Source of the DNA: Aquincola sp.
Lineage (GTDB): Bacteria; Pseudomonadota; Gammaproteobacteria; Burkholderiales; Burkholderiaceae_C
Direction: 5' to 3'
Assembly (NCBI GenBank): GCA_022841885.1
Contig: JALHQP010000011.1
Coordinates: 1 to 56,306, forward strand
DNA: 56,306 nt
Both the position numbers and the translations under genes were made by a program. The notes below the pieces were generated by a model. It made no database searches. It was given only the letters and a program-made list of their open reading frames with translations, and was not told where the DNA came from. This document shows, one piece after another, positions 1 to 5,385 of the stretch (positions within the stretch are counted from its first letter, which is position 1; each line of letters begins with the position of its first letter).

Positions 1-548
1 CACTCAAGCGCGCGCTCGCCCAGGGTGCGCCGGTCAATGGCCGCGACGGCCACGGCCGCACCCCGCTGCACGTGGCCACCTTCGCGCGCCAGCGCGAGGC
101 GATCCGCGCGTTGGCCGCCGCCGGGGCCGACCTCGGGCTGCTCGAGAACGACCGCTACGACGCGGTGACGATCGCGTCGGTGGCCGACGACGAGGACACG
201 CTGCGCGTGCTGCTCGCGCTCGGCGCGAGCGCCAAGCTGGTCACCAGCCGCTACGACGGCACCGCGCTGATCGCCGCGGCGCACCTCGGCCACGACGGCG
301 TGGTGCGCCAGCTCATCGCCGCCGGCGCGCCGCTCGACCACGTCAACAACCTGCACTGGACCGCGGTGATCGAGGCCATCGTGCTCGGCGACGGCGGCGC
401 CCGGCATCAGGCGACGCTGAAGGCGCTGATCGATGCCAAAGCCAACCTGCAGCTGGCCGACCGCAGCGGCCGCACACCGCTGACGCTGGCGCGCGAGCGC
501 GGCCATGCGGCGATGGAGCAGATGCTGCGTCAGGCCGGCGCGCGCTGA
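1..548 (+). CDS. Ankyrin-repeat protein, 5' end outside the window
   Basis: The frame is open from base 3 to the TGA at 546-548, so the true start lies upstream and only the last 181 residues are visible. About five ankyrin repeats can be read. The clearest are the first (GRTPLHVA), the third (GTALIAAAHLGHDGVV) and the last (GRTPLTLARERGHAAMEQML), each followed by a turn such as AAGADL or AAGAPL. The repeat stack runs to the C-terminus with no other domain. Ankyrin repeats normally bind protein partners; the partner and the location cannot be told because any signal peptide is off the window. The last 19 bases overlap the end of the convergent TerC gene. The family is certain, the function open. 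Confidence 0.85.
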   Translation, partial: LKRALAQGAPVNGRDGHGRTPLHVATFARQREAIRALAAAGADLGLLENDRYDAVTIASVADDEDTLRVLLALGASAKLVTSRYDGTALIAAAHLGHDGVVRQLIAAGAPLDHVNNLHWTAVIEAIVLGDGGARHQATLKALIDAKANLQLADRSGRTPLTLARERGHAAMEQMLRQAGAR

Positions 549-1522
549 AGGGCGGCGCCTGCGCGCGTCTTCCACATCGAGTACGCCACGCCGCCGGCGA
601 TCAGGCCGAAGGTCACCGTCAGCGAGATCCAGGCCGGCGTCTTGCCGACCAGGCCGACAAGGAAGATCTTGCCGCCGATGAACACCAGCACCATCGCCAG
701 CGCGTACTTCAGGTAGTGGAAGCGGTGGATCATCGCCGCCAGCGCGAAGTACAGCGCGCGCAGGCCGAGGATGGCGAAGATGTTGCTCGTGTAGACGATG
801 AAGGGGTCGGTGGTGATCGCGAAGATCGCCGGCACCGAGTCGACCGCGAACACCAGGTCCACCGCCTCGATCAGCACCAGCGCCAGCAGCAGCGGCGTCG
901 CGAAGCGCACCGCCTTGCCCGTCGCCGGGTCGGGTTCGGTGACGACGAAGGCCTTGCCGCGCAGGCCGTCGGTGATGCGCAGGTGGCGGCGCAGGAACTT
1001 CAGCAGCGGGTTGTTCGCGATGTCGGGCTCGTGGTCGACCATCCACCACATCTTGATGCCGGTCAGCACGAGGAAGGCGCCGAACACGTAGAGGATCCAG
1101 CTGAACTCGGTCACCAGCGCGGCGCCGAGACCGATCATGATCGCGCGCAGCACGATCACGCCCAGGATGCCCCAGAACAGCACGCGGTGCTGGTACTGGC
1201 GCGGGATCGCGAAGAAGCCGAAGATCAGCGCGATGACGAACACGTTGTCCATCGACAGCGACTTCTCGATCATGAAGCCGGTGAAGTACTCCATGCCGCT
1301 GTGCGCACCGAGGAACCACCAGACCCAGGCGCCGAACACGACCGCCACGCTGATGTAGCCGGCCGACAGCAGCAAGCTCTCGCGCACGCCGATCTCGCGC
1401 TCGTCCTTGTGCAGCACGCCGAGGTCGAAGGCCAGCAGCGCCACCACGATGGCGATGAAGAGCAGCCAGGCCCAGGCCGGCTGGCCGAGGAAGTCGGAGA
1501 CGAGAAACGCAGGCAGGTCCAT
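530..1522 (-). CDS. TerC/Alx family integral membrane protein
   Basis: A 330-residue polytopic inner-membrane protein with about nine hydrophobic segments. The TerC hallmarks are present: EKSLSMDNVFV in an early helix, and later EAVDLVFAVDSVPAIFAITTD, whose acidic residues inside membrane helices are typical of the family. Relatives include E. coli Alx and the tellurite-resistance protein TerC; several members are linked to manganese export or metal loading of secreted proteins. I chose ATG 1522, which puts the first helix 14-20 residues in; ATG 1552 and TTG 1582 are in-frame alternatives, and a purine-rich stretch sits ahead of 1552. It is transcribed divergently from an NhaR-like regulator. 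No yybP-ykoY-type riboswitch was seen upstream. Confidence 0.88.
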   Translation of the reverse strand: MDLPAFLVSDFLGQPAWAWLLFIAIVVALLAFDLGVLHKDEREIGVRESLLLSAGYISVAVVFGAWVWWFLGAHSGMEYFTGFMIEKSLSMDNVFVIALIFGFFAIPRQYQHRVLFWGILGVIVLRAIMIGLGAALVTEFSWILYVFGAFLVLTGIKMWWMVDHEPDIANNPLLKFLRRHLRITDGLRGKAFVVTEPDPATGKAVRFATPLLLALVLIEAVDLVFAVDSVPAIFAITTDPFIVYTSNIFAILGLRALYFALAAMIHRFHYLKYALAMVLVFIGGKIFLVGLVGKTPAWISLTVTFGLIAGGVAYSMWKTRAGAALQRAPA

Positions 1523-1592
1523 GGGCGAAGCCGGTTCGTGAAGGTGGCGCATGGTGGCGTCGCGCGCCTTCCTGAAAAACAAGCTTTCACCT

Positions 1593-1617
1593 GATAATGA
1601 CTTCGGTTTTTTCGAAG
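1593..1617. promoter_or_regulatory. Divergent promoter and LysR-type operator
   Basis: The only AT-rich stretch between the TerC gene and the LysR gene. GATAAT at 1593-1598 resembles a -10 box for the rightward gene, with the start codon about 34 bases on. TTCG-N7-CGAA at 1602-1616 is an inverted repeat containing the T-N11-A spacing typical of LysR-family sites. Read leftward, CATTAT (1600-1595) could serve as the -10 for the TerC gene. Neither direction shows a convincing -35 box. Confidence 0.4.
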
Positions 1618-1631
1618 TGTCCCGGAGCCCG

Positions 1632-2516
1632 ATGTCGACCCTGAACTACCGCCACCTGCACTACTTCTGGGTCGTCGCCCAGGAAGGCGGCTTCGCGCGC
1701 GCGGCAACGCGGCTGGACATGGCGGTGCAGACGGTCAGCGCCCAGGTGCGCGAGCTCGAGCGCGCGCTCGGCCACCAGCTGCTGCGCCCGGCCGGGCGCG
1801 GTGTGGCGCTGACCGAGGCCGGACAGGCCGCCTTTGCGCGCGCCGAGCAGGTGTTCCAGATCGGCCAGACGATCCCCGACGCGGTGCGCGAGGCGGCCAG
1901 CAGCCCGGTGCAGCGGCTGGCGGTGGGCCTGTCGGACGGCCTGTCCAAGCTGGCCGCCCACGCGCTGCTGGGCCCGGTGCTCGACGCGCCGGGCCTGCGC
2001 CTGGTCTGCCACGAGGGCGAGTTCGACCAGCTGCTCGCCGAGCTCGCATCGCACCACCTCGACCTGGTGCTGGCCGGCCAGCCGGCGCCGCCGAACCCGA
2101 ACCTGCGCCTGGTCAGCGAGCGCCTGGTCGCCGCACCGGTGGACTGGTTCGGGCCCGCCTCGCTGGTGCGCAAGGCCGAGGTGGACCACTTCCCGCACTC
2201 GATCGCTCGGTTGCCGGTGCTGCTACCGACCCGGCATGCCGTGCTGCGCCACACGCTGGAGCTGTGGTTCGACACGCTCGACCTGCAGCCGACGGTGGTC
2301 GGCGAGTTCGAGGACAGCGCCCTGCTCGCGGTGTTCGCGGCGCGCGGGCTGGGCGTGTTCCCGGTCAGCCGCCTGGGCGCCGACGACGTGGGGCTGATGC
2401 GCGGGCTGCGCCTGCTCGGGCGCAGCGCCGACGTGAAGGAGGAGATCCACGCCATCCGCTCGCGGCGCGGCCTGCACCACCCGCTGGTGCGGCGCATCCT
2501 GTCGTCTGCCGGCTGA
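1632..2516 (+). CDS. LysR family transcriptional regulator, NhaR-like
   Basis: A 294-residue protein. Residues 1-60 form the winged helix-turn-helix (LNYRHLHYFWVVAQEGGFA, then AATRLDMAVQTVSAQVRELE). Residues about 90-290 form the two-lobed effector-binding domain. NYRHLHYFW at the start, the L-RPAGRG turn after the DNA-binding domain and GEFEDSALLAVFAARGLGVF in the effector domain resemble NhaR, the Na+/H+ antiporter regulator of enterobacteria, more than a generic LysR protein. ATG 1632 was chosen because the family begins with NYxHLxYFW; an in-frame upstream start at 1551 would overlap the divergent gene. It most likely controls the neighbouring TerC gene from the site at 1602-1616. The inducer is unknown. 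Confidence 0.9.
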   Translation: MSTLNYRHLHYFWVVAQEGGFARAATRLDMAVQTVSAQVRELERALGHQLLRPAGRGVALTEAGQAAFARAEQVFQIGQTIPDAVREAASSPVQRLAVGLSDGLSKLAAHALLGPVLDAPGLRLVCHEGEFDQLLAELASHHLDLVLAGQPAPPNPNLRLVSERLVAAPVDWFGPASLVRKAEVDHFPHSIARLPVLLPTRHAVLRHTLELWFDTLDLQPTVVGEFEDSALLAVFAARGLGVFPVSRLGADDVGLMRGLRLLGRSADVKEEIHAIRSRRGLHHPLVRRILSSAG

Positions 2517-2525
2517 CCGGCGGTA

Positions 2526-3030
2526 TCAGGGCCGTGCGCTGCCGGCCCACTCGCGCAGGTGCGAGACGCGGCAGTCGAGTGCACGCGCCATGCCCTGCGC
2601 GCCGGCGCGCATCACGGCGAAGTGGTTCCACTCGAACAGCGGCCGCAGCAACCATGCGAGCGCGCGCATCCAGCGCCGCTGCAGCACCACCTCCCAGCGG
2701 TAGGTCACGTCGACCGCCGCGTCGCCGTCCACCGGCTCGAGCACCCAGGTGCCCACGCCCTGCAGGTCGCCCTGCGCCCGGCCTTCGAGTCGGCGCGGCG
2801 CCTCGGCGGGCGGTGGTCACGCGCAGCTGCAGGCCATAGGGCAAGGCGCTGCCCCACACCAGCGCGGTCACGTCGCCAAGTGGCGTGGCCGGCGTGGTCG
2901 ACACGCGGCGCGTGCGCCGCACGTAGCGCCACCACGACGGCCAAGCCTCGACCTCGCTCAGCAGTCGCCACACCGCGGCGGCCGAGGTGTGCAGACGCCA
3001 GCGGCTGATGAGCACGAAACACGACGGCAT
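2526..3030 (-). pseudogene. SRPBCC family protein, interrupted by a single-base frameshift
   Basis: Two overlapping minus-strand frames together make one START/polyketide-cyclase-like (SRPBCC) protein. The first frame starts at ATG 3030 with SRWRLHTSAAAVWRLLSEVE, the usual N-terminal strand and helix, and continues through WPSWWRYVRR. The second frame carries GTWVLEPVDGDAAVDVTYRW and the C-terminal helix FEWNHFAVMRAGAQGMARAL. Deleting one base at about 2805-2810, a GC-rich run, joins them through TARREAPRRLEGRAQGDL, which reads as normal protein. It is either a recent inactivating mutation or a sequencing error. It follows the upstream cupin gene by 12 bases, so it is probably the last gene of the sigma-factor operon. 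Ligand unknown. Confidence 0.72.
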
Positions 3031-3042
3031 CGTGGCATCGCT

Positions 3043-3831
3043 TCAGCGTGCGCGCGGCGGCACCAGCACCGGATCGATGGCGCCGTGGAAGAAGAAGCTG
3101 CCGCCGACATCGCTGGTCTCGCCGAAGTGGCCGCCGCCGGCCGGCGCCAGCTGGTAGTCGCCGGGGCGCAGCAGGATGTCGCCGAGAAACATCTCGCCCT
3201 CGAGCATCAGGCAGTCCTCGTGCACGGCGTGGCGGTGGTCGGGCACGCCGGCGCCGGCGGCGAAGCGCACCAGCATCGACGTGATCTCGGCATTGCCCCA
3301 CAACGGCAGCACCTCGACGCCGGGAAAGGTCGGCAGCCAGCGCCGCTCGCCCGGCTGCACGCAGCGCAGTGGCGGGCGCGGCAGGCGCCACCACGAGGCT
3401 TCGGGCTCGGGCAGCATGGCCGGGTCGACGAGGACCTGGCGCAGATAGACGAGCGCCGGCGCATCGCCCGCGCGCAGCGTGCCGGCGTCGGCGGCACTGC
3501 GCAGCACATGGCTGTGCGGCGCGAGCGCCAGCTCGGCCTCGGCACCCGCCGCGCAGGCCAGCAGCGGGCCCTGCACCAGCAGCAACTCCTGCGCCCAGGT
3601 GCCGGCCGCCCAGGGCACGGTTGCACGGGGTGCGAGCTCGATTAGTTGCACCCGCACCTCGGCGCCGGACCACAGGGTGGCCTCGCGCACGCCGGCGCCG
3701 GCCTCGGCCCAGCGCCGGTCCTCGCGCCGCAGCGTGTGATGCTCGCGGTGCGCCTGCACGCTCTGGCGTGCGCGCGCGGCCAGACGCGCGCCGAGGGCGT
3801 CGAGGCGCTCGAGGGCCTTCGCCTGCGTCAT
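3043..3831 (-). CDS. Bicupin protein of the ECF sigma operon, ChrR-cupin-like
   Basis: A 262-residue soluble protein. Residues 1-45 are charged and helical (LERLDALGARLAARARQSVQ). Two cupin barrels follow, at about 48-120 and 165-260. The second carries a full metal-binding cupin motif: HRHAVHEDCLMLEGE supplies His and Glu ligands, then GDYQLAPAGGGH the last His. This resembles the C-terminal cupin of ChrR, the anti-sigma factor of RpoE-type sigma factors. The N-terminal zinc anti-sigma motif of ChrR (HxxxCxxC) is not visible. The start ATG 3831 overlaps the sigma-factor stop (ATGA), so the two are translationally coupled. I infer a sigma-activity modulator or redox/metal sensor; a stand-alone dioxygenase-like enzyme is the alternative. 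Confidence 0.75.
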   Translation of the reverse strand: MTQAKALERLDALGARLAARARQSVQAHREHHTLRREDRRWAEAGAGVREATLWSGAEVRVQLIELAPRATVPWAAGTWAQELLLVQGPLLACAAGAEAELALAPHSHVLRSAADAGTLRAGDAPALVYLRQVLVDPAMLPEPEASWWRLPRPPLRCVQPGERRWLPTFPGVEVLPLWGNAEITSMLVRFAAGAGVPDHRHAVHEDCLMLEGEMFLGDILLRPGDYQLAPAGGGHFGETSDVGGSFFFHGAIDPVLVPPRAR

Positions 3832-4565
3832 GCGCGCCCCCCCGTCAGCGCTGGCGGTGCCTCGGCGCCTTCGATCGTCGCCTTCATCGCGGCCAGCGCG
3901 CGCCGGATGTGCGACTTCACGGTGCCCAGCGGCAGGCCGGTCTGCTCGGCGATCTCGGCCTGCGAGCAGCCGCGCAGAAAGGCCAGCGACACGAGCTGGC
4001 GCCGCAGCGGGTCGAGCGCGGCCAGCGCCTGCTCGAGCTGGCCGGCGCTGCGCACGCCGGCCAGGAGCTGCATCGGGTCGTCGGGGTCGCGGCCGTCGCC
4101 GAAAGCCGGCAGCGCCTCGTCGTCGTCGAGTTCGGCCGCGCCGCGCAGCGGGTTCGACGACTGGGCGCGCAGCGCATCGAGCGCGCGCGAGCGCGCGATG
4201 CGGCGCACCCACGCGACCACCGTGCCGCGCTCGGCGTCGTAGCGCGGCGCCTGGCGCCAGACCTGCCAGAACACGTCCTCGACCACCTCCTCGGCGCTGC
4301 CGATCTCACGCACCAGGCGCAGCACCTGCGCGAAGATGCTGCCGCACAGGCTGCGGTACAGCGCGGCGAAAGCGGCCTCGTCCTGGTAGACGACGCGTCG
4401 CACCAGCCGCACGAGCGCTGCGTCGTCGAGCGCGGGCCGGCAGGCGGGCGAGGCCGTCTCGACAGCCTCGCCGTGCTCGGGCTCCGCGTCCGGGGCGATA
4501 CCGTCCAAGGGACTCGCCAGCTCGTGTGGTTCCATTGCATCGATGATTGCCGCGCTGCAGGCCAT
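3828..4565 (-). CDS. ECF-type RNA polymerase sigma factor
   Basis: A 245-residue sigma-70 family factor with regions 2 and 4 only. Region 2 spans about 55-125 (AAFAALYRSLCGSIFAQVLR, then EEVVEDVFWQVWRQAPRYD). Region 4 lies at about 175-230, with helix-turn-helix RGCSQAEIAEQTGLPLGTVK. An extra N-terminal tail of about 50 acidic residues precedes region 2. A TTG at 4571 opens the frame, but ATG 4565 fits better: it lies 3 bases after the upstream stop and 10 bases after a perfect AGGAGG at 4581-4576. Cupin genes lie directly on both sides with overlapping or near-contiguous ends, so the cluster is one operon. Stress type is not shown by sequence; RpoE-ChrR systems respond to singlet oxygen or organic peroxides. 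Confidence 0.9.
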   Translation of the reverse strand: MACSAAIIDAMEPHELASPLDGIAPDAEPEHGEAVETASPACRPALDDAALVRLVRRVVYQDEAAFAALYRSLCGSIFAQVLRLVREIGSAEEVVEDVFWQVWRQAPRYDAERGTVVAWVRRIARSRALDALRAQSSNPLRGAAELDDDEALPAFGDGRDPDDPMQLLAGVRSAGQLEQALAALDPLRRQLVSLAFLRGCSQAEIAEQTGLPLGTVKSHIRRALAAMKATIEGAEAPPALTGGRA

Positions 4566-4567
4566 GG

Positions 4568-5317
4568 TCAATCCGCCTCCTGTGCAATGACGATGTCGAG
4601 GTCCACGTCACCGTGGACATAGAGCAGCCCGCCGCGTTCGCTCGCCACGTCGTGGTGGATCGCGCCGGCCGGCGCTAGCTGGAAGTCACCGGGCAGCAAC
4701 AACTGATCCTCGCTGTGTATCTCGCCCTCCAGCAACAGGCAGGTCTCGTCATGACAATGGCGGTGCGACGCGACCACGGCGCCGGCCCCGAAGCGCACGA
4801 GGAAAGGTGCAACACCCCCGCGCGGCGGCGCCAGCAGGCGGCGGGCGAGCCCTGGTGCGAGCGTCTGCCAGCATGACGGCGCCGGCGCGGCAACGCCGTC
4901 CGTGCGGCACGGCGCGGCGCGCTCGTGCACCATCACGCGCGCGCCCGTGCCACTGGCCAACGTGAGCGTGGCGGGGGCCGCAGCTGCCTCGCAGTAGTCG
5001 AGTGCGGCCATCGGTCTGCCGTCGACCTGCGCCTCGCCGCGGCACAGCAGCAGCGCAAACGGGCTGCCCTCGTGCAAGGGCAGGTCCAGACGTGCGCTTG
5101 GCGGCAAGTCGATCCAGCGCAGGCGGTCGCCAGCGCGGGCCTCATGGGCCAACCGGACCAGCCCCCCGCCGCAACGGACGACTGGCATGTCGGCCAGACG
5201 CCGTGTTTGGTGGCCACGCGAGCGCGTGGCGCTGCGCGCCAGGCGCGGAGCCAGGCGCGACCACACGCGCTCCAGCGGATCGAGCGAGAGGTCGGGGCCG
5301 ATAGGGATCGACGGCAT
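4568..5317 (-). CDS. Bicupin protein, first gene of the ECF sigma operon
   Basis: A 249-residue protein with two cupin barrels, at about 50-130 and 165-245. The second has SHRHCHDETCLLLEGE followed by GDFQLAPAGAIHHD, a complete set of His/Glu metal ligands plus two cysteines beside them. It is clearly paralogous to the cupin gene on the other side of the sigma factor; both end in a GDxQLAPAG strand. ATG 5317 was preferred to GTG 5320 because GGAAGGG lies 8 bases upstream of it. The stop is 2 bases before the sigma start. Its N-terminus also lacks the ChrR zinc-binding anti-sigma motif, though it contains the helical segment LERVWSRLAPRLARSATRSR. A regulatory role on the adjacent sigma factor is inference from position and fold. 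Confidence 0.75.
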   Translation of the reverse strand: MPSIPIGPDLSLDPLERVWSRLAPRLARSATRSRGHQTRRLADMPVVRCGGGLVRLAHEARAGDRLRWIDLPPSARLDLPLHEGSPFALLLCRGEAQVDGRPMAALDYCEAAAAPATLTLASGTGARVMVHERAAPCRTDGVAAPAPSCWQTLAPGLARRLLAPPRGGVAPFLVRFGAGAVVASHRHCHDETCLLLEGEIHSEDQLLLPGDFQLAPAGAIHHDVASERGGLLYVHGDVDLDIVIAQEAD

Positions 5318-5385
5318 CACGTGAACCCTTCCGCCGACGGCCGCCTACCGGATGCATCCCCCCTGGCGACGCAGGGACATGCGCT

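Follow-up and report, generated by a model that had tools for sequence, protein, structure and literature searches.

An extracytoplasmic function sigma factor gene and two bicupin genes without a zinc anti-sigma domain form one operon in Aquincola sp.

Organisation of the locus

This work concerns an operon at positions 3043–5317 of a 56,306-nucleotide stretch of Aquincola sp. DNA (GenBank assembly GCA_022841885.1, contig JALHQP010000011.1), hereafter called the window. A sequence-only reading had placed a gene for an extracytoplasmic function (ECF) sigma factor here, between two genes for bicupins, that is, proteins with two cupin barrels. This arrangement was confirmed: three overlapping or abutting genes on the minus strand form a single operon. 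The upstream bicupin gene, cupA (4568..5317), encodes 249 amino acids from an ATG at 5317, with a GTG at 5320 as a possible start. It is followed by the sigma factor gene (3828..4565), which starts with an ATG at 4565 (a TTG at 4571 is also possible) and stops at 3828, and by the downstream bicupin gene, cupB (3043..3831; 262 amino acids), whose ATG overlaps the sigma stop codon as ATGA. As the trio recurs in other genomes, a chance arrangement is ruled out.

The sigma factor contains Pfam regions 2 and 4 without region 3, which assigns it to the ECF (group 4) sigma factors. It carries an N-terminal extension of ~45 residues and no C-terminal domain; the last residue of region 4 is 229, which leaves ~18 of the 247 residues behind it. 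The best NCBIfam match was SigK, with a score of 122.9 that lies below the cut-off of 226.

Conserved linkage in related genomes

The sigma alignment was scanned against 84,980 species genomes, which yielded 116 relatives, and the best 80 were kept; the scan pattern limits this sample to one sigma sequence variant. The sequence-only reading had suggested a search for the same trio elsewhere, and the sigma-cupin pairing was found widely: a cupin open reading frame (ORF) lay directly downstream of the sigma gene, on the same strand, at 79 of the 80 loci, and the 80th (L074) is cut by the end of its contig. By profile, 74 of these downstream cupins have two barrels and five have one detected barrel. 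The loci were drawn from beta- and gammaproteobacteria, and the hosts include Methylomonas, Methylovulum, Accumulibacter, Nitrosomonas, Methyloversatilis, Rubrivivax, Roseateles and Aquabacterium. The cupin start overlapped the sigma stop at 47 of the 79 loci, 32 of these as ATGA, with start codons chosen by a rule biased towards nearby ones. An upstream cupin was also present in 15 loci (one ~900 nucleotides away), each with one intact barrel, and in two genomes from the same family as the window, G011 and G034; contig ends truncate some of the loci. Only in the window was a bicupin seen upstream of the sigma gene.

Clustering of the ORFs of 81 loci revealed no third widely conserved operon member. 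The next four clusters (65, 64, 21 and 14 loci) overlie the sigma and cupin genes, mainly on the opposite strand, and the remaining clusters occurred in at most 13 loci. Within the window's order, a cupin match at 1e-10 was obtained in 58 of 300 genomes. Matches of at least 1e-60 strength were restricted to five genomes, including the window's own and a truncated fusion in G483, which indicates that the bicupin form is uncommon in this order. The loci fetched for the weaker matches held single-cupin partners of a sigma factor, or cupins without a sigma factor. Overall, related sigma factors were partnered by a single barrel, a bicupin or a tandem pair. Among the literature matches listed, titles and abstract openings described no ECF sigma-bicupin module without an anti-sigma domain, although a listing in the 2021 ECF re-classification is possible.

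At eight loci (L030, L046, L047, L055, L075, L083, L002 and L003) the sigma and bicupin genes share a reading frame with a single stop codon between them, and at L003 all three genes lie in one frame. Read-through fusions are conceivable at such loci. The truncated fusion of G483 (L142, G483:C32, ORF 307-1365, minus strand) joins sigma region 2 directly to the bicupin N-terminus in one frame; sigma region 4 and the cupin start are gone, through either an in-frame deletion or an assembly artefact.

Absence of the anti-sigma domain

In ChrR, the cupin acts as the signal domain and a zinc helix bundle as the clamp, and the route of the signal to the clamp is still described as open (PMC6852236). 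The sequence-only reading had stated that the HxxxCxxC anti-sigma domain is missing from cupA and cupB, and this held, as neither protein gave a zinc-finger or anti-sigma-domain Pfam match. Across 29 aligned family members, cupA and cupB included, no zf-HC2 or anti-sigma domain (ASD) match was obtained at E values up to 1, and HxxxCxxC was absent from all 79 downstream cupin ORFs of the related sigma loci. Only ~30–50 residues precede the first barrel in cupA and cupB, with a single helix motif; helices 1–3 of a class I anti-sigma domain (ASDI) were not found in either protein, nor was a Pfam ASD. No anti-sigma gene occurs among the window neighbours of the trio.

A canonical anti-sigma factor elsewhere, which the sequence-only reading had named as evidence against its proposal, was looked for in the organism's own genome. 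No ChrR scored above the family cut-off, and the single TIGR02451 match was cupB itself (22.6 bits); five zf-HC2 matches were found on other contigs. The same genome gave two SigK-like ECF matches.

Cupin barrels and metal ligands

Both bicupins were expected to have two barrels with intact His/Glu metal ligands. This was correct for the C-terminal barrels and incorrect for the N-terminal ones. The C-terminal barrels of cupA (4598..4897, minus strand) and cupB (3070..3366, minus strand) match Cupin_7 ('ChrR Cupin-like' in Pfam; E values of 9e-14 and 5e-13) and retain the ligand columns HHEH. The N-terminal barrels are degenerate, reading PHFT in cupA (4910..5176, minus strand) and AGQG in cupB (3433..3738, minus strand).

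Among 75 two-barrel proteins, both sites were kept in 29, only the C-terminal site in 26, only the N-terminal site in 20, and neither in none, so that at least one 3-His-1-Glu site was intact in all 75. The proteins with one detected barrel all had HHEH (20 of 20). If losses were independent, ~7 double losses would be expected by arithmetic uncorrected for relatedness, against the zero observed. This retention may be taken as evidence that the metal matters. The L060, L103, Nitrosomonas and Methyloversatilis loci mirror the window, with an intact N-terminal barrel and lost C-terminal ligands.

The two bicupins share a strand, read beforehand as GDxQLAPAG and here seen as GDFQLAPAG and GDYQLAPAG. 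It had been taken to point to duplication, which is not supported: GDYQLAPAG turned out to be the family consensus, and a family-wide strand is no mark of duplication. In a tree of 77 bicupins, cupA and cupB fell on opposite sides of a 100/92 split, each nearer to other genera; cupA grouped with bicupins that stand downstream of the sigma gene in Sphaerotilaceae and their relatives, and three further proteins from Burkholderiales grouped with cupB. A recent tandem duplication was rejected on the basis of this split, with the caveat that both proteins sit on long branches, which makes their exact positions unsure.

N-terminal helix and predicted sigma contact

Ahead of the first barrel, a helix motif with the consensus ALRxRLLeRVAaS was identified, which stands at the position corresponding to ASDI helix 4. 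In cupB it spans residues 8–36 (3724..3810, minus strand; i-Evalue 2.8e-5 with a nine-sequence set, shuffle p 0.001, and p 0.005 in the comparison of sigma-linked and unlinked proteins below). In cupA it reads LAPRLARSATRSRGHQTR (5201..5254, minus strand; shuffle p 0.001) and was weak in the profile search (i-Evalue 0.055); cupA gave no helix match in the comparison of sigma-linked and unlinked proteins, where the scanned region began too late. In that comparison the motif occurred in 13 of 27 cupin proteins of sigma loci, a set that includes six ChrR-type or ZAS-like proteins without the motif and also takes in repeated window entries and proteins from the profile set. In loci without a sigma factor it occurred in none of 21 bicupins and in one of three single cupins. 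An equivalence with ASD helix 4 was attractive, as that helix holds 12 of the 14 strongest couplings with sigma region 2 (PMC7406223).

L156 (G340; ORF 835-1887, plus strand) was the one protein among seven of the ZAS or ZAS-like kind to match the helix motif (p 0.005). This cupin has both the HxxxCxxC domain and the match to the sigma-linked helix, its genus also includes the bicupin genome G064, and it is possibly an intermediate between the two forms.

Structure prediction of a sigma-cupin pair, as proposed by the sequence-only reading, was carried out on relatives. AlphaFold was given a single chain, for which relatives were chosen with the sigma and bicupin genes in frame and one stop between them. 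The Methylovulum L030 pair gave a predicted template modelling score (pTM) of 0.77 and a predicted local distance difference test (pLDDT) score of 89.8, with the helix (224-245) at pLDDT 96–97 and the linker below 50. By arithmetic, a bicupin not packed on the sigma factor would give a pTM of only ~0.5 (d0 ~7.7, 467 residues), which would mean that part of the sigma factor was placed confidently against the bicupin. The model thus suggests a sigma-bicupin contact in the L030 pair. A 94-row alignment was not used for folding because it placed most cupin N-termini under the sigma factor (33 of 38 rows in a re-run); alignments A5 and A6 were sound on inspection. The nearest solved fold to the L030 bicupin was Marinobacter Maqu_0586 (PDB 3o14, deposited as 'anti-ECFsigma factor ChrR'; Z 22.8, root-mean-square deviation 2.6 over 198 residues). 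Its aligned range begins at the first barrel (model 246, chain 8), and so 3o14 appears to be without the N-terminal helix.

Other fold matches of this relative include quercetin dioxygenase and oxalate decarboxylase, which would suit cupins that are dioxygenase-like or isomerase-like target enzymes in an autoregulated sigma operon, the sigma factor being controlled elsewhere or by its expression level. A parallel is given by the ECF41 loci, where cupin genes are reported in presumed operons with the ECF sigma factor in four cases (PMC3426412); those sigma factors have a C-terminal regulatory extension of their own, which the window sigma factor lacks. We regard target enzymes as an unlikely explanation. 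The cupin is linked at 79 of 80 loci, across orders; the helix motif occurs in sigma-linked members and in none of the 21 unlinked bicupins; the partner behind related sigma factors varies among single barrel, bicupin and tandem pair, which is unusual for one enzyme; and the pTM of the L030 pair argues for contact.

Promoter motif and putative regulon

A dyad search upstream of the relative operons identified the motif TGCATCC-N15-GCGTA. At a threshold of at least 6 of 7 and 4 of 6 bases, it was present upstream of 53 of 78 operons, with a spacer of 15 in 48 of the 53, and 43 of 68 non-redundant operons carried it, against 4.0 in shuffles. As the motif was derived from the same operons, searches of whole genomes are the fairer test; these gave 41 exact sites against 4 for the reversed control in 19 genomes, and 97 against 4 in 40 genomes, the operons' own sites included. 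In the window, a promoter-like site, TGCATCCG-N14-GCGGA (5330..5356, minus strand), ends 12 nucleotides before the cupA ATG, at a distance to the start codon like that of the upstream-cupin operons. It has one mismatch to TGCATCCR-N14-GCGTA, with GCGGA replacing GCGTA.

The organism's own genome contains 12 sites with at most one mismatch, against one for the reversed control. Of its two exact sites, one lies ahead of a DUF4331 gene and the other ahead of a cytochrome P460-cupredoxin gene; most of the nine one-mismatch sites other than that of cupA lie inside long reading frames and may be due to chance. The proteins encoded behind the sites were also searched against Pfam, 83 of 93 non-autoregulatory downstream frames entering the count, with near-identical genomes kept. 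DUF4331 was found in 10, ABM in 8, P460 in 6 and Ferritin_2 in 5, while DUF3034, DUF4394, cupredoxin and sigma region 2 were found in 4 each. The ten dropped frames (near-duplicate, implausible or the sigma gene itself) were L224, L228, L235, L290, L318, L319, L345, L365, and one each at L294 and L359.

BufA2-like peptides were encoded behind eight sites in module genomes, and the NCBIfam BufA2 cut-off was passed by all three peptides tested, two of them from module genomes and one from a genome without the module. The BufA2-like bufferin genes behind TGCATCC-N15-GCGTA (L216, L235, L237, L320, L332, L334, L337 and L367) are candidates for regulation by the cupin-linked sigma factor or by a SigK-like ECF. 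A 2025 survey places sigma-factor genes in Buf1 clusters and not in Buf2 clusters (PMC12452194); we assume that its Buf2 corresponds to NCBIfam's BufA2.

The same motif stands just upstream of SigK-like ECF genes in several genomes (G024:C25, G075:C6, G038:C11, G011:C1 and G002:C81), and a SigK-like ECF probably shares its promoter motif with the cupin-linked sigma factor. This likeness to the SigK/RskA-type ECFs is accompanied by two differences, as the window sigma factor falls below the SigK cut-off and has a cupin as neighbour instead of an RskA-type gene.

The shared motif, together with the two SigK-like ECF matches and the five unlinked zf-HC2 matches in the own genome, leaves room for an unlinked canonical anti-sigma factor (e.g., the RskA or ZAS type of a SigK-like ECF) that controls the sigma factor while the cupins only modulate. 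Sigma and anti-sigma genes generally occur in linkage, and the cupin is the only widely conserved neighbour here, which counts against this explanation. Furthermore, G034 has the module and sites at both its cupin operon and its BufA2 gene, with no SigK-like match at 1e-30. We consider an unlinked anti-sigma factor the least probable of the alternatives.

Neighbouring genes

A gene for an SRPBCC-type (polyketide cyclase-like) protein (2526..3030, minus strand) begins 12 nucleotides past the cupB stop and is the probable last gene of the operon. It is split over two frames (2758-3030 and 2526-2756) by a frameshift or an assembly error, and only the first frame matches Pfam Polyketide_cyc (3.5e-5). 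An SRPBCC-type protein of another genome (L281) has a TGCATCC promoter. Other neighbours in the window encode TerC, LysR, an aldehyde dehydrogenase, a hybrid histidine kinase and an ankyrin-repeat protein.

Interpretation

Among the closest known systems is ECF11 RpoE-ChrR of Rhodobacter sphaeroides (2q1z, 2z2s), in which an ECF sigma gene is likewise followed by that of a soluble Cupin_7 partner with a 3-His-1-Glu site. The window sigma factor matches the 2q1z sigma chain (E 5.9e-20), and the C-terminal Cupin_7 barrels of both window cupins carry the ChrR-type site. In contrast to ChrR, the window cupins lack the zinc anti-sigma domain, and their group usually has two barrels. Against the TIGR02451 cut-off of 124.5 bits, cupB scored 32.9 and cupA 19.8, over the cupin half of the model only, and cupB showed no significant match to a ChrR chain (best E 0.07). 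In the sigma tree, a 100/99 branch separates the window sigma factor from five of six ChrR-partner sigma factors and one ZAS-like row, though several ChrR and ZAS rows are long branches and the partner sigma factor of the ZAS-cupin L156 falls inside. By the missing zinc domain and the family score, the system is most likely ChrR-like in its working without being a ChrR, and its cupin regulator is most likely a ChrR-type anti-sigma factor that has no ChrR anti-sigma domain. cupB has the features of the sigma-linked bicupin group: it directly follows the sigma gene, and it has the N-terminal helix, at least one HHEH barrel and no HxxxCxxC.

The sequence-only reading had proposed control through cupins alone, and cupin control of the sigma factor is indeed held to be most likely. 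As a genomic pattern, cupin control without a zinc anti-sigma domain is well supported (79 of 80 loci, no HxxxCxxC and no other conserved neighbour), and for the control itself the pTM lends indirect structural support. We infer that the cupin binds the sigma factor and inhibits rather than activates it, and likewise the signal and the reading of the motif by the window sigma factor. The opposite sign would make the cupins positive factors or chaperones, the metal-loaded cupin being required for sigma activity. The sequence leaves the sign unfixed, and co-expression from the same promoter suits either; ChrR, the characterised relative with the same cupin, is nonetheless an anti-sigma factor, even if its cupin serves release and not inhibition (PMC6852236). 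An activating role is held to be quite improbable.

We think it somewhat more probable than not that the operon encodes an ECF sigma factor with soluble cytoplasmic metal-dependent cupin regulators, the downstream one of which holds the sigma factor inactive. In this mechanism, cupB, whose position is conserved in relatives, most likely keeps the sigma factor inactive, probably gripping it through its N-terminal helix and the adjoining barrel face in place of a zinc anti-sigma domain like that of ChrR. The likely sensor would be the metal held by the single intact barrel of cupB, and the sigma factor would be set free once this metal or its ligands are lost, exchanged or oxidised. cupA would be an accessory family member, perhaps competing for the interaction or tuning it. 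The freed sigma factor would read TGCATCC-N15-GCGTA promoters, its own operon included, and switch on a small, mostly exported gene set, namely DUF4331 and cytochrome P460-cupredoxin, and in relatives also ferritin-like, DUF4394 and BufA2 proteins. Such a regulon would amount to a metal- or oxidant-type response.

Several observations weigh against this proposal. One metal site is lost in each window cupin, and the congeners gave no cupin match (0 of 4, two of them <80% complete). Some of the 13 helix matches come from proteins that belong to the profile-building set or repeat it, and six single-cupin partners that lack HxxxCxxC (L147, L149-L152 and L155) show no such motif at p 0.01. Homology of the helix to ASD helix 4 found no significant support in the comparison with 16 ZAS ORFs (combined p 0.14). 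The sigma contact is drawn from the pTM of a relative, modelled as one chain joined via a stop codon. Inter-protein coupling was uninformative (90 sigma-cupin pairs, effective number of sequences (Neff) 71), the top pairs being hub positions judged to be noise. The model of the G034 trio gave a pTM of 0.61, which by arithmetic is the value expected for bicupin and sigma factor without the upstream cupin; the helix of the upstream cupin had pLDDT 35–45, six alignment rows covering that cupin, and that of the downstream bicupin 80–95 per ten-residue block. This difference makes the downstream bicupin the better candidate for sigma binding, and for the inhibitor in the sensor-plus-inhibitor division that the sequence-only reading had suggested as a possibility. 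Finally, with the module taken as any cupin beside a sigma factor, the motif occurred at 19 sites in 9 module genomes and also in genomes without it, at 45 sites in 31 genomes with a SigK-like ECF and 12 sites in 60 genomes lacking one. Specificity of the regulon was rejected on this basis, as the motif is not exclusive to module genomes.

A broader reading is put forward tentatively: a metallo-bicupin anti-sigma factor without an anti-sigma domain, with a short helix and barrel as grip, a metal switch and a compact copper/oxidant regulon, would be a distinct class of ECF control and a missing regulator of Burkholderiales BufA2 genes. If this is true, the window would show the most elaborate form of such a class, with two divergent bicupins around one sigma factor. 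The promoter motif could serve directly as a reporter and yields a brief list of targets, which includes the DUF4331, P460-cupredoxin, ferritin-like and BufA2 bufferin genes. A family that has kept the cupin and dropped the helix bundle would isolate the question of how the signal is transferred from cupin to clamp.

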